From: Flavobacteriaceae bacterium | Lineage (GTDB): Bacteria > Bacteroidota > Bacteroidia > Flavobacteriales > Flavobacteriaceae | DNA: 64,000 nucleotides | Reading direction: 5' to 3' | Assembly (NCBI GenBank): GCA_947457615.1 | Contig: CANGWK010000004.1 | Location: 62,001-126,000, forward strand | Shown here: piece by piece, positions 19,629 through 48,679 of the stretch | Layout of the letters: each line of letters opens with the position of its first letter | Numbering within the stretch: position 1 is the stretch's first letter | Made by a program: the position numbers and the translations under genes | Notes under the pieces: generated by a model | Told to the model about the DNA's origin: nothing | Databases searched by the model: none | What the model saw: only the letters and a program-made list of their open reading frames with translations

Positions 19629-19632
19629 CTAG

Positions 19633-20028
19633 TGGAGTCGCCGAGAATCGAACTCGGGTCCAAACAAGCAATCAAAGAGCTTTCTACACGCTTATTTTCT
19701 GATTGAGTTTTCGTCATTTTGCAAGGCCAAAAACAGCCACAAAACACTTATCTCCTTAAATTTTCGTAACAGCTCCGAAGCTTTACTGTTCTTAGGTTCG
19801 TTTTTACGATTCACCTATACCGACCGCCACAAACCAAAGCTTTCGAGGTAAATCCTGCTTTCCTACCTGGTAGGAGCGTGGCTAATCTTACTATGATTCA
19901 GATTATGCAGCAAGAGCGTAGTTTCCTTCGCCGTTTATGTTTTTTGAAAATTGATATTTACGAGCCAAAATTCAATGCTCGACGTGCTTACTGTTCAATT
20001 CCACTCGCTGTCAAAACCAGTCGACCCC
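19633..20028 (-). ncRNA. ssrA: tmRNA (10Sa RNA)
   Basis: Minus strand starts GGGGTCGACTGGTTTTGACAGCGAGTGG and ends GAGTTCGATTCTCGGCGACTCCA. Tag ORF GGC GAA GGA AAC TAC GCT CTT GCT GCA TAA encodes GEGNYALAA. CCA not encoded. Confidence 0.96.
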
Positions 20029-21951: not shown

Positions 21952-22079
21952 TTTTAATGCTAATTATGGTTTAAAATCTGAGCAACATTCACGGTTTTCG
22001 CCAGAGGTTAGTCAAATGTGGGTGCAAAGATAATTAATAATTGATAATTAACAATTAATAATTGATATTTTTCCAGTTA

Positions 22080-22783: not shown

Positions 22784-22862
22784 AGGAGCTATTCCCGCTA
22801 TTCATTGCAATCTTTTCTTTTTTGAAGAAAAAAAGAAAAGGATTTCCATTTCTATCGGGGCT
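22784..22862 (-). repeat. Dispersed intergenic element, copy A (conserved ends, variable hairpin core)
   Basis: Minus strand AGCCCCGATAGAAATGGAAATCCTTTTC...GAAAAGATTGCAATGAATAGCGGGAAT matches the ends of the element at 30208-30300. Confidence 0.75.
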
Positions 22863-22885
22863 AAAAGAGAAAAATACTTTTGGAT

Positions 22886-30057: not shown

Positions 30058-30207
30058 TCAATTAGGAATTAAGAATATCGTAATTCTTAATTTATTATCG
30101 GTAGTTATCATTTAAACCAATGTTTTAAATTCATTGGTTTTATTTTTTCCATTCCTTTGGTTTTCTCTTGTTTGGAATTTTATTTTATTACAATACCATA
30201 ACCGTAT

Positions 30208-30300
30208 AGCCCTGACAGAAGCGGAAATCCTTTTTTAACTCCAACAGAGTTTTAACTCTGTCGGAGTTTAAAAAGATTGAAACGGATGGCAGGAATTGCA
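30208..30300 (+). repeat. Dispersed intergenic element, copy B
   Basis: AGCCCTGACAGAAGCGGAAATCCTTTTTT-[aactccaacagagttttaactctgtcggagttt]-AAAAAGATTGAAACGGATGGCAGGAATTG. Same ends as copy A at 22784-22862, different hairpin core. Confidence 0.8.
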
Positions 30301-39870: not shown

Positions 39871-40032
39871 TTTTTCTATCAAGCTTTTTTTATTAGTGGT
39901 AGTTGTAATCTCTAAATAAACTTAAATCAATATCCTTATAACATTAAATAAAATATTACTTTTATTTTAAATGAAATCTTCTAAAAATAAATTAAATAAG
40001 GATCAATAAATTCCACTACATTTACAAACGTA

Positions 40033-40205
40033 TTTCGGTTGTGACTTTGATTTTTCAGAGGAACATTAAAAGGGAATTAGGTTAAAAACCTAGGCTGTAC
40101 CCGCAACTGTATGCTATTATGCTTGTTGTTATCTACAAAGTCACTTTTCGTTACGGCGAATGGGAAGGCAAACAACAAGACGCAAGCCAGGAGACCTGCC
40201 ATTTT
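40033..40205 (+). promoter_or_regulatory. Cobalamin (AdoCbl/B12) riboswitch
   Basis: aaaagggaattaggt...ctgtacccgcaactgt...acgcaagccaggagacctgcc, carrying the B12-box GCCAGGAGACCTGCC, upstream of a TonB-dependent receptor. Confidence 0.93.
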
Positions 40206-40298
40206 ACATTGAGTATCAAACTTTCGGGAAAAAAGGTTTGGGTATGGGTAATTCTGTGCTTTTCTCCCATGAATAAAAATTAGTAGTAACTAAAAAAA

Positions 40299-43374: not shown

Positions 43375-44214
43375 TTAAATGCTGTTAAATTTATAAGTGA
43401 AATAACATTTAGCAAATAATTGAAATTTTTGATAATCGGACACCCGAATTCGAGTGTTTTTTATTTCTGCGGAAGGGGTACTTTTTAATTTGGAAAGTAA
43501 TTTTTTGTAATAAACATAAGCAGTATAAACTCCAAATTTTGCTTCTATTGGTAGGTTTACAATCCCAAGGTATCCTGCTTCAAAATCAGCTTCTATCTCG
43601 GTAATAATGTTGTTTTTAGAGGCTTCATCTAATTTATTTAAATCGGTATTAGGAAAATAGGTTCTATGCAAATCTTCAAAGTCTGCTTTTAAATCTCTTA
43701 AAAAATTTACTTTCTGAAATGCCGATCCTAATCTCATAGCAGACTGTTCTAATTCTTGGTATTTTGCTTCATTTCCATTAACAAAAACTTTTAAGCACAT
43801 TAATCCAACAACATCTGCCGAACCATAAATGTATTCTTTGTATTCACTATCAGTTGCATAATTGGATTTTACTAAATCCATTTTCATGCTTTTCATGAAG
43901 GCATCGATTAACGAGTTTGGAATTTGGAATTTGTGCACCGTATGTTGGAACGAATTTAAAATAGGATTTAAGCTGATTTTATTTTGTAATGCAGCATCCA
44001 AATCTTTTTCAAACATTTCAAACAAATTTTCTTTGTTGTAATCGTGAAATGAATCTACAATTTCATCAGCAAAACGAACAAAACCGTAAATGTTATAAAT
44101 ATCCTGTCTTATAGTTGGTGCAAGCATTTTTACAGCAGAAGAAAACGACGTGCTATACGTGCTTGTTACATTCTTACTGCATTCAAAAGATATGGTGTCA
44201 AAAAGGGATTTCAT
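43375..44214 (-). CDS. crtB: Phytoene synthase
   Basis: STYSTSFSSAVKMLAPTIRQDIYNIYGFVRFADEIVDSFHDYN; QKVNFLRDLKADFEDLHRTYFP. Confidence 0.95.
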   Translation of the reverse strand: MKSLFDTISFECSKNVTSTYSTSFSSAVKMLAPTIRQDIYNIYGFVRFADEIVDSFHDYNKENLFEMFEKDLDAALQNKISLNPILNSFQHTVHKFQIPNSLIDAFMKSMKMDLVKSNYATDSEYKEYIYGSADVVGLMCLKVFVNGNEAKYQELEQSAMRLGSAFQKVNFLRDLKADFEDLHRTYFPNTDLNKLDEASKNNIITEIEADFEAGYLGIVNLPIEAKFGVYTAYVYYKKLLSKLKSTPSAEIKNTRIRVSDYQKFQLFAKCYFTYKFNSI

Positions 44215-44228
44215 GCTTTTCTTATAAT

Positions 44229-45689
44229 TTAACTATGTTTTTTTATTAAATCGGCAACTAGTTTTCCAGATATTAATGCTGGAGGTACTCCAGGACCAGG
44301 AACGGTTAATTGACCGGTGAAATATAAACTTTTTACTTTACTACTTTTTAATTTAGGCCTTAAAAATGCTGTTTGCAATAATGTATTCGCCATTCCGTAT
44401 GCATTTCCTTTATAGGAGTTATAAACTTCTTCAAAATCAAGTTTGCAAAAAGACTCTTTAAAGATAATATTTTCTTTTATGTTTTGCTTAGTTAATGTCT
44501 CAAATCTTGAAATTATTTTTTCAAAATAGGTTTCTCTTAATTCTGGCGTATCTTCAATTCCTGGCGCAAGTGGTATTAGGAAAAATCCAGATTCCATTCC
44601 TTCTGGCGCTGCAGTCTTGTCTGTAATTGAAGGAAAATTTGCATAGAATAAAGGATTTTCAGGCCATTTTGGATTATCGTAAATGTCTTTCGCATGTTGG
44701 TTGAAATCCACATCAAAAAACAAAGCATGGTGAGAAATATTCTCTATTTTTTTGTTGAAACCTACATAGAAAAGTAGGGAAGAAGGTGCAAAAGTCTTGC
44801 TTTCCCAATATTTTTCAGAATAGGCTCTATGTTCTGTATCTAATAAAGTCTCCGTGTGATGGTAATCAGCTCCGCTAAGAATAATATCTGCATCGATTCT
44901 TTTTCCCTCTATTTGTAAGGCAACAGCCTTTTTATTTTCTACAATGATTTTCTCAATATTGGAATTGGTTTCAAATTTTACGCCTAATTCCAGAGCCAAA
45001 AGTTCCATTCCACGAACCACATCGTACATCCCACTTTTAGGATGCCAAGTTCCCATGCCAAAATCTGCATAATTCATAAAACTATAAAACGAAGGCGTAT
45101 CGGAAGGTTTGGCACCTAGAAATAATACTGGAAATTCTAATATTTGAATTAGTCTTTGGTTTTTAAATTTTTTACGTACGTCTTTACTAATGTTGCTAAA
45201 AAACTGACCTACTTTCAATGCGGTTTCGGTAGTAATTAACTCCAAAGCCGAAACTCCAGGACGGTAAACCAAATCTTTGATAGCAATATCATAATTGCTT
45301 TTGGCTTCAGCCATAAACTTTGCTAAAATTGTACCACTTCCTTCTTCAATTGTTTCAAATGTTTTTATTATTTCTTCTAAATTATCCGCGATACTAATAA
45401 AATCATTAATTCCATAATAAACTCTGTAGGCTGGCGATAATTTTATTAGTTCATAATAATCAGAAGGTTTTTTATTAAAGTCACCAAAAAAACGTTCAAA
45501 AACATCGGGCATCCAGTACCAACTCGGACCCATATCAAAAGTGAATCCGTCTCTTTTTAGTTGACGTGCTCTACCACCAATAGTACTATTTTTTTCATAA
45601 ATTGTTACTGAATTTCCTTGTTGCGCCAAATAACAGCTGGCTGCTAATGCAGAAAATCCAGAACCAATTATTTTGATGTCTTTGTTCAT
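44229..45689 (-). CDS. crtI: Phytoene desaturase
   Basis: IIGSGFSALAASCYLAQQGNSVTIYEKNSTIGGRARQ; FDMGPSWYWMPDVFERFF; GPGVPPALISGKLVADLI. Confidence 0.95.
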   Translation of the reverse strand: MNKDIKIIGSGFSALAASCYLAQQGNSVTIYEKNSTIGGRARQLKRDGFTFDMGPSWYWMPDVFERFFGDFNKKPSDYYELIKLSPAYRVYYGINDFISIADNLEEIIKTFETIEEGSGTILAKFMAEAKSNYDIAIKDLVYRPGVSALELITTETALKVGQFFSNISKDVRKKFKNQRLIQILEFPVLFLGAKPSDTPSFYSFMNYADFGMGTWHPKSGMYDVVRGMELLALELGVKFETNSNIEKIIVENKKAVALQIEGKRIDADIILSGADYHHTETLLDTEHRAYSEKYWESKTFAPSSLLFYVGFNKKIENISHHALFFDVDFNQHAKDIYDNPKWPENPLFYANFPSITDKTAAPEGMESGFFLIPLAPGIEDTPELRETYFEKIISRFETLTKQNIKENIIFKESFCKLDFEEVYNSYKGNAYGMANTLLQTAFLRPKLKSSKVKSLYFTGQLTVPGPGVPPALISGKLVADLIKKHS

Positions 45690-45787
45690 ATATTTATTTA
45701 ATTTACTAAGCTTATTTTATAAAGTCTTTATATGATTTTGTTAGAGATTTTTTTCTCTAAATGAATACGATTTTCTATGTAAAATTA

Positions 45788-46684
45788 TTACAATTCGGTT
45801 ATTAATTCGCTTATAGTATCAAATTTTCTAACAGATTCACTGAGGATTGTAGTATCAATATTTTGAACATTTCTACCAATGATCCAGAGTTGCGAATCTT
45901 CAACTAAAATTTGTTCTTTTAATTCTTGAATATAAGGATTAATCTTATTTTTTATTGGTTCAACTGTAGAATAACACACGTAAACTATGTTGTTGAAGTA
46001 TTTTTTTAAATCTTTCAAACTATCTATAGGAACGCTTTGCCCTAAATAAATACTCTTGTAGCCACTGGATAGAATCTCATAATTAAGGTACATTAATCCC
46101 AGTTCGTGCACTTCATCCATTGGTAAATAAAGCACAAATAATTTATCTTCTCTTGTTGGGCTTTGACTTTGAATTTTTTCGGTTATAACCAATAATTTTA
46201 ACTTGATCAAATAACTAATAAAATGTTCGTGAGAAGGGCTTACAGTTTCTGCTTGCCACAACAAACCAATTTCTTCCATTAACGGAATAAATACCTCAAA
46301 AAACACTTCTCGAAAAGACTTTTCAGACAGTAAAGCCTCGTAAGTATCCAAAAACAATTTCTGATCAAAGTTCATCATCGCCATTTTAAAAGAACTTATG
46401 GCATGACTTTTAGCACTTTTATTTGAAATTATTTCTTGAACTAATTCCGGAATTTTCTCACTTGGTAACTTAGAAATCTTAGAGATTTTATAACCATAAT
46501 CGTGTAACAAGGTGATATTTAGTAATTTTTGAAGAGCATGTAAGTCGTAAAACCGAATGTTGGTATCGGTTCGCATAGGTTCTAAAACATTATAGCGCTT
46601 CTCCCAAATACGAATAGTATGTGCTTTTATTCCCGATAAATTTTCTAAATCCTTAATAGTAAAAGTGTTTTTAACACTACCCAT
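45788..46684 (-). CDS. MerR-family regulator with B12-binding domain (CarH/LitR-like)
   Basis: MerR HTH FTIKDLENLSGIKAHTIRIWEKRYNVLEPMRTDTNIRFYD; Wx9EH motif WQAETVSPSHEH; B12-domain EVHELG (ExHxxG); adjacent to crtIBZ. Confidence 0.88.
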   Translation of the reverse strand: MGSVKNTFTIKDLENLSGIKAHTIRIWEKRYNVLEPMRTDTNIRFYDLHALQKLLNITLLHDYGYKISKISKLPSEKIPELVQEIISNKSAKSHAISSFKMAMMNFDQKLFLDTYEALLSEKSFREVFFEVFIPLMEEIGLLWQAETVSPSHEHFISYLIKLKLLVITEKIQSQSPTREDKLFVLYLPMDEVHELGLMYLNYEILSSGYKSIYLGQSVPIDSLKDLKKYFNNIVYVCYSTVEPIKNKINPYIQELKEQILVEDSQLWIIGRNVQNIDTTILSESVRKFDTISELITEL

Positions 46685-47326: not shown

Positions 47327-47481
47327 TTAACAAAGAAAATAAAGAAAAAATTTAAAAAATTATTTTGGCTTGACTTATAAGTTGAATTATTTTTTATATT
47401 TGCAACAATTAATAGTCACTAATATGAATAAATAGTGTCTTAAATAGAAAATCATCAATAAAAAGAATCGAAATATTAATA

Positions 47482-47512
47482 AACAGGGAAGCCGAAAACT
47501 GTCTAGAGTAAG
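47482..47512 (+). repeat. 31-nt leader motif, copy 1
   Basis: aacagggaagccgaaaactgtctagagtaag, identical at 48170-48200. Confidence 0.9.
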
Positions 47513-47533
47513 CAAAAACAAAAACAAACAAAA

Positions 47534-48103
47534 ATGAAAAAAATTGTATTATTATTTATTAGCTTATTGGCTTTTAGCTCATTAAAAGCGCAAGATTCAA
47601 AAGCTTATTTAGGAGTTTCTGTTGGATATGCTATTCCAGGCGGTGACGGATCTGATAATTTAAATTCTGGCATTAATTTAGGATTTATAAATTTCGGATA
47701 TCGTTTTAGCAAGGCATGGGGTGCAACATTAAATTTAACTTCTTCTGGTTTTGCCTACAAAAATACTGGTGCACTAGGAGTTGCTGTTTTTTCAGTTGGA
47801 CCAATGTATTCTGCCAGCTTAAGTGAAAAACTATCTCTTGATTTAAAACCACAATATGCTATTAGTATTGTAGGAAAAGAGTCAGGGACTGGTTATGATG
47901 ACGCAACATTAAGAGGCTCAGGAATTGTATTAGGGAGTTCTTTAAATTTTGGTGTAACTAAAGGATTTAAATTGTCTTTAAATCTAGATTATACAACTGG
48001 AAAATGGAATGAACTTGAAATGGGTGGTACTACCTATAAAGTGACTTCTAAAAATAGTATAAGTTCACTTGTTATGGGTGCTGGTTTGAGGTATAATTTT
48101 TAA
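47534..48103 (+). CDS. Outer-membrane beta-barrel protein
   Basis: Signal peptide MKKIVLLFISLLAFSSLKAQ; alternating beta-strand pattern; terminal YNF. Confidence 0.8.
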   Translation: MKKIVLLFISLLAFSSLKAQDSKAYLGVSVGYAIPGGDGSDNLNSGINLGFINFGYRFSKAWGATLNLTSSGFAYKNTGALGVAVFSVGPMYSASLSEKLSLDLKPQYAISIVGKESGTGYDDATLRGSGIVLGSSLNFGVTKGFKLSLNLDYTTGKWNELEMGGTTYKVTSKNSISSLVMGAGLRYNF

Positions 48104-48105
48104 AT

Positions 48106-48143
48106 AAGTCCAATAATAAATAATGTTTTATTGAGTTGGACTT
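48106..48143 (+). terminator. Terminator after 47534-48103 gene
   Basis: aagtccaa...ttggactt followed by T-rich tract. Confidence 0.75.
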
Positions 48144-48169
48144 TTCCATTTTTTAGCCTAATAAAATGT

Positions 48170-48200
48170 AACAGGGAAGCCGAAAACTGTCTAGAGTAAG
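48170..48200 (+). repeat. 31-nt leader motif, copy 2
   Basis: Identical to 47482-47512, 26 nt upstream of the next ATG. Confidence 0.9.
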
Positions 48201-48226
48201 AACAAATTATATATTATTTATATCTT

Positions 48227-48679
48227 ATGAAAAAATTAAATTATTTATTTTTATTAATTCCGTTTTTATTATTATCGTGTTCCAAAGATTCAGCAACAGC
48301 CGAAACACCAACACCAACATATAGTGTTCAAGGTCTCTGGAAAACCACATCTGCTGTATTAAATGGAGTTGAAAAATTTGGGGGTACAAATACTGTTAAA
48401 AGTGAATTGAATTATTTTAATGCAGACGGAAGTTTAAGCACTCAATCATTTACTGATACTAACTTCTCCACATTAATTAGCTATTCGTCAGGAACTTATT
48501 CCATACCGAATACTTCAACAATAAATATGTCTGCCAATGCATACAATGCATCTGGGGCTTTTTTAGCTACATATAATGTGTCTTGCCAAGTTCAATTAAT
48601 TAATTCAACCCAACTGCAATTAAAAATTCTTAATTATCCTGCAGCTAATGATGTTTATGTAAAAAAGTTTGTAAGATAA
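48227..48679 (+). CDS. Lipocalin-like lipoprotein
   Basis: Lipobox LLLSCSKDS; YSVQGLWKTTSAVLNGVEKFGG..YFNADGSLSTQSFTDTNFSTLISYSSGTYSI. Confidence 0.7.
   Translation: MKKLNYLFLLIPFLLLSCSKDSATAETPTPTYSVQGLWKTTSAVLNGVEKFGGTNTVKSELNYFNADGSLSTQSFTDTNFSTLISYSSGTYSIPNTSTINMSANAYNASGAFLATYNVSCQVQLINSTQLQLKILNYPAANDVYVKKFVR

Follow-up and report, generated by a model that had tools for sequence, protein, structure and literature searches.

The closest described relatives of the element analysed here are two families of Rfam clan CL00115, DUF805b (RF02914) and its longer sibling DUF805 (RF03081). DUF805b has so far been an RNA family without a function; among 5.39 million open-access papers searched in full text, none names it and only one cites its accession. 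The family is known as such, and what is added here is evidence for a pseudoknot, its occurrence in phages, its operon-internal sites and its spacing to the AUG. Bacteroidetes are, to our knowledge, a phylum without Shine-Dalgarno sequences. The preQ1-I riboswitch is a very small H-type pseudoknot near the start codon. In Escherichia coli, translation of tisB depends on a pseudoknot in its leader (a standby site), which binds the 30S subunit and ribosomal protein S1 (PMC7708055). In F. johnsoniae, the region from -20 to +20 matters for initiation (PMC6847099).

The repeated leader and its two genes

The window, a 64,000-nt stretch of a Flavobacteriaceae genome, carries exact copies of the 31-mer aacagggaagccgaaaactgtctagagtaag at 47482-47512 and 48170-48200. 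The preliminary description of this DNA had reported the pair as a leader motif shared by two adjacent genes for exported proteins, and a search allowing up to three mismatches confirmed both positions. It found no third copy, neither within the window, where shuffling predicts 0.00, nor anywhere in the genome of 2.85 Mb. The 3ˊ end of the repeat lies 21 nt before the ATG at 47534 for copy 1 and 26 nt before the ATG at 48227 for copy 2, as had been stated. The sequences flanking the two copies are unrelated, again in agreement with the earlier account. Both a simple gene duplication and a generic repeat scattered through unrelated positions are rejected.

The gene behind copy 1 (47534..48103, plus strand) encodes a 189-aa exported outer-membrane beta-barrel protein that matches Pfam PF13505 OMP_b-brl (E 1e-6). 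The gene behind copy 2 (48227..48679, plus strand) encodes a 150-aa lipoprotein with the lipobox LLSC and a signal peptide of the lipobox type, for which a Pfam search returned no match, so that the label lipocalin-like in the preliminary description is a tentative one. Between the genes, at about 48106-48143 on the plus strand, a hairpin had been called a terminator. The hairpin is real (-12.4 kcal/mol, z -4.43), but a consensus terminator scan of the region did not call it, and from its predicted fold we regard it as putatively either a terminator or the 3ˊ end of the transcript of gene 1. Scans of the region for sigma-70 promoters and terminators gave nothing exceeding chance. A putative Bacteroidetes promoter for gene 1, read by eye against the consensus TANNTTTG (PMC6847099), lies at 47370..47402 on the plus strand (TTG ... 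TATATTTG, the latter at 47395-47402); transcription from it would reach copy 1 after about 75 nt.

Comparison with Rfam, which the preliminary description had recommended, matched both copies to DUF805b, with element copy 1 at 47482..47513 (plus strand; 31.8 bits, E 6.8e-7) and element copy 2 at 48170..48201 (plus strand; 31.3 bits, E 9.8e-7), both aligning across all 35 model positions. These scores fall slightly under the curated gathering score of 35.6. In a relative, L007, the orthologous element in front of the same gene reaches 36.2 bits, above the cut-off, from which homology of the window copies to a family member follows. A short P1 hairpin that closes the loop GGAAgCCGAAAA, seen in the RF02914 alignment and in the covariation of P1, and a position shortly 5ˊ of a coding sequence are common to the family and both copies, and the tail AGAGUAGG resembles that of the family. 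Within the model tail AGAGUAGGcA, AGAGUA is intact in both copies, whereas GG is replaced by AG in both and the final C is found in copy 1 only. A second helix, P2, is absent from the nested RF02914 structure line of cmscan, a line unable to show pseudoknots. DUF805 has the same core as the window copies but is about 33 nt longer at the 5ˊ side, and the Rfam scan did not call either copy as RF03081. By sequence comparison, the two 31-mers are thus assigned as copies of a DUF805b-type RNA, a family already catalogued. The whole genome contains seven RF02914 matches at E <= 0.05. Besides the two copies in the window, these are more diverged relatives of the element: one lies on contig C8, and the other four are the longer DUF805. 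These four DUF805 elements (L067, L071, L072 and L073; positions C21:29772, C2:84678, C13:55575 and C30:156 of genome G000) score 68-74 bits and lie mostly before genes for exported proteins.

Compensatory changes maintain both helices of a mini-pseudoknot

By covariation, the element is an H-type mini-pseudoknot of about 32 nt, built in the order P1 (3-5 bp), L1 (GGAA), P2a (NCC), L2 (GAAAA), P1ˊ, a spacer with AGAGUA, and P2b (GGNˊ). The stem acag...ctgt proposed in the preliminary description is real and corresponds to P1, with covariation; the stem-only structure is incomplete, since loop and tail add a second helix and so form the pseudoknot.

Flavobacteriales instances were anchored on C[CT]GAAAA...AGAGTA only, and the 186 with a P1 of at least 3 bp were analysed. 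In this set the three bases 5ˊ of GAAAA pair with the three bases 3ˊ of AGAGTA: the first pair of P2 is Watson-Crick in 165 of 186 instances (GC 71, UA 65, CG 17, AU 12; shuffle mean 62, maximum 82), the second is C-G in every one, and the third is C-G, U-A or U.G in 182. When 59 distinct 31-mers were aligned without gaps, 90.3% of cells were paired in the pseudoknotted structure, whose covariation score is 0.701, compared with 0.245±0.022 for shuffled controls and at most 0.122 for slid structures; P2 alone has 94.4% of cells paired, a value as high being reached in none of 500 shuffles. P1 was tested independently on viral contigs with a pattern in which L1, P2a, L2, the tail and P2b were fixed and P1 was left free, and 29 of 32 distinct arm pairs had at least three contiguous pairs (expected 6.0, maximum 14). 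Both helices are therefore maintained by compensatory changes, and the loops hardly vary, GAAAA and AGAGUA being conserved and GGAA largely so.

The anatomy of the window copies was assigned from the covariation of the 186 and 59 instances. In copy 1, P1 is formed by ACAG (47483-47486) and CUGU (47499-47502), enclosing L1 GGAA (47487-47490), P2a GCC (47491-47493) and L2 GAAAA (47494-47498); the spacer CU (47503-47504) and AGAGUA (47505-47510) lead to P2b AGC (47511-47513), so that P2 has two of its three pairs and one C.A mismatch. The corresponding parts of copy 2 are P1 at 48171-48174 and 48187-48190, L1 at 48175-48178, P2a GCC at 48179-48181, L2 at 48182-48186, the spacer at 48191-48192, AGAGUA at 48193-48198 and P2b AGA at 48199-48201, where a single Watson-Crick pair remains beside C.A and G.A. 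On contig C8 of this genome, the copy has a fully paired P2 (GCU with AGC). The mismatches of the window copies likely arose via U.G or C.A intermediates, of which the 186-instance set contains 15 and 4, respectively, and with their imperfect P2 the two copies may be weak elements.

Placement, spread and local copying

Measured from P2b, the element ends 20 nt before the ATG in copy 1 and 25 nt in copy 2. Among the 180 instances with an ORF, 175 have the 3ˊ end of P2 at 17-28 nt before the ATG, with a mode of 21, so the earlier view that this is a 5ˊ-leader element whose distance to the start codon matters is upheld for an RNA element with fixed spacing. Twenty-seven of the 186 cellular elements begin 0-30 nt past the stop of the ORF before them. 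Among these are atpB, 20 nt, the element and atpE in L062; an exporter gene, the element and a GG-leader peptide gene in L091, L124, L145 and L146; and a caspase gene with a partner gene behind it, where an element precedes each of the two. Each gene served has an element of its own even inside operons or phage gene arrays. A general association with atpE was considered and rejected, as the element is present at one of 30 atpE loci of that family and relatives are without it there; in L212-L225, a different conserved block, tattaactagagtgtttaatttaaattaatt, stands just 5ˊ of atpE in this flavobacterial family.

The genes behind cellular elements include those for DUF805, DUF2589, caspase, collar-domain, DUF6520-like and T9SS-sorted proteins, with many of the products exported, and those behind viral elements include ParB-like proteins and a DNA methyltransferase; no common pathway unites the genes served. 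One form of the element alone is present in 105 viral contigs, where the ATG mostly lies 18-22 nt past the element. For 64 of these 105 elements an upstream stop codon is no more than 30 nt away, and in some it falls inside P1. In the viral loci L288, L291, L303, L325, L327 and L356, the upstream TAG stop apparently constitutes bases 1-3 of P1, an overlap that might couple termination to the element.

A relaxed pattern matches 25 of 200 genomes of the genus and its reversed form none. With the covariance model at E <= 0.05, matches occur in 167 of 248 genomes of the order and in three of 14 control genomes; above the curated cut-off these figures are 87 of 248 and 0 of 14, and at E <= 1e-5, for genomes of the class instead of the order, they are 98 of 198 and again 0 of 14. 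Copy number per genome ranges from none to about 20. The exact 31-mer has no match in the genome and viral collections because the helices vary, and a search for named phages with proteins homologous to the downstream gene products gave no match. Each of the two genes in the window does have its own copy, as had been proposed, but the element is not special to them, DUF805b being distributed across Bacteroidia and phages. Outside this range, in two high-GC gammaproteobacterial assemblies (L243 and L253, Lysobacterales and Thermomonas MAGs with GC 0.64-0.66), a DUF2589-like gene is preceded at a distance of 23 nt by a perfect DUF805b element, a possible transfer of gene plus leader beyond the Bacteroidetes.

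A search of 200 genomes of the genus with the beta-barrel protein as query recovered this genome and three others, and in all four the beta-barrel gene and the adjacent lipoprotein gene each have their own element; conservation upstream of orthologues, a check suggested in the preliminary description, is thus borne out in every genome found. This holds also for the 47%-identical homologue in L210. The gene order is swapped between genomes, indicating that element and gene move together. Elements that neighbour each other have 7.06 of 8 P1 letters in common, also before unrelated genes, compared with 3.59 for random pairs, and distant copies within one genome share 4.5 of 8. An element copied or converted locally would account for the perfect repeat. 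At L162 (G198:C1:796992-801690), a further perfect pair of 34-nt elements, separated by 1375 bp, precedes unrelated genes, like the pair in the window.

Possible function and rival explanations

The pseudoknot, the AUG spacing and the operon-internal and phage copies narrow the function to a post-transcriptional action on the next ORF, and we are highly confident that the element is a real post-transcriptional cis element. Our preferred explanation, with a probability of roughly 0.5, is a DUF805b leader pseudoknot acting in cis on the single ORF about 20 nt downstream. Translation initiation is the most likely step, at about even odds, because the element ends just 5ˊ of the -20 to +20 region (PMC6847099) and because the tisB leader provides a precedent for a pseudoknot binding 30S and S1 (PMC7708055). 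The pseudoknot would lie in the mRNA leader just outside the footprint of the initiating 30S subunit; 30S/S1, or else an RNA-binding protein of wide distribution, would bind its conserved loops there; and binding would change, most likely raise, translation initiation of the next gene. The tisB standby site is a model for such recruitment and is not homologous to the element; it acts about 100 nt from a sequestered ribosome binding site in an organism with Shine-Dalgarno sequences (PMC7708055).

We tentatively suggest a positive and largely constitutive effect; its sign is taken from gene pairs whose second product is needed in excess, and the positions between atpB and atpE and between exporter and peptide genes fit a need for more of the second product. 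More doubtfully, DUF805 and DUF805b might both be portable ribosome-recruiting leaders that replace the Shine-Dalgarno sequence, dock 30S/S1 via the invariant GAAAA and AGAGUA loops and let Bacteroidia and their phages raise the translation of one operon gene. If the element does promote initiation, it would give a phylum without Shine-Dalgarno sequences a signal for translation, and it could also be used as an expression part. An A-rich start-codon context as a sign of strong translation was considered and dropped: its apparent excess over all long ORFs vanished against signal-peptide genes and is a control artefact, A-3, A-6 and A-12 being about equal in element genes and in control genes with well-defined starts.

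Two rivals to the translation reading are serious. The pseudoknot could be the site of a dedicated regulator, an RNA-binding protein or an sRNA, which turns a regulon of exported and antagonistic proteins on or off according to conditions, phages borrowing the host regulator; invariant loops between freely varying helices resemble a recognition code, and secreted peptides, lipoproteins, caspase-like and collar-domain proteins make up many of the targets in cells. However, atpE is a target too, as are ParB-like and methyltransferase genes of phages; no gene for a regulator was found, and a copy number of none to about 20 per genome fits such a regulon poorly, which leaves it rather unlikely. 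Less probable still is a processing or stability element, in which cleavage in A-rich sequence before P1 would leave at the new 5ˊ end a pseudoknot that protects the mRNA of the gene behind it; the elements directly past stop codons inside operons, the A-richness just 5ˊ of P1 (69% A in the last two bases) and the hairpin before copy 2 are consistent with it, but protection of a 5ˊ end needs no tight spacing to the AUG and a helix of 3-4 bp is a weak shield.

The size, the H-type topology and the conserved loops recall preQ1-I and hence a small metabolite riboswitch, but the element differs from preQ1-I in sequence, has no queuosine theme, and carries its P2 about 20 nt from the AUG, where it covers no Shine-Dalgarno sequence. 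The downstream genes have no common pathway, phage DNA-metabolism genes are among them, and the roughly 20 nt before the AUG show no expression platform; a riboswitch is disfavoured for want of a pathway theme, and an attenuator because a terminator has no room there, so that we consider the riboswitch explanation very improbable. The promoter or operator offered as an alternative in the preliminary description is the least likely of all and is nearly discounted: a short conserved sequence 5ˊ of genes and the place of copy 2 after a hairpin would suit it, but two-sided compensatory changes in two helices, a spacing tied to the AUG and not to any promoter, and sites 0-30 nt past stop codons within operons argue against a DNA-level signal. 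No fixed-distance promoter was found 5ˊ of the elements, TAnnTTTG occurring at scattered distances only.

Elsewhere in the window, further Rfam matches at 19630-20028, 21983-22010, 22787-22866, 30204-30300 and 40019-40217 comprise tmRNA, an L19-Flavobacteria leader, two Flavo-1 RNAs and a cobalamin riboswitch. At 43375-46684, translations resemble phytoene synthase and desaturase, followed by a regulator of the MerR/B12-binding type on the minus strand, and this stretch is likely a light-regulated carotenoid cluster.
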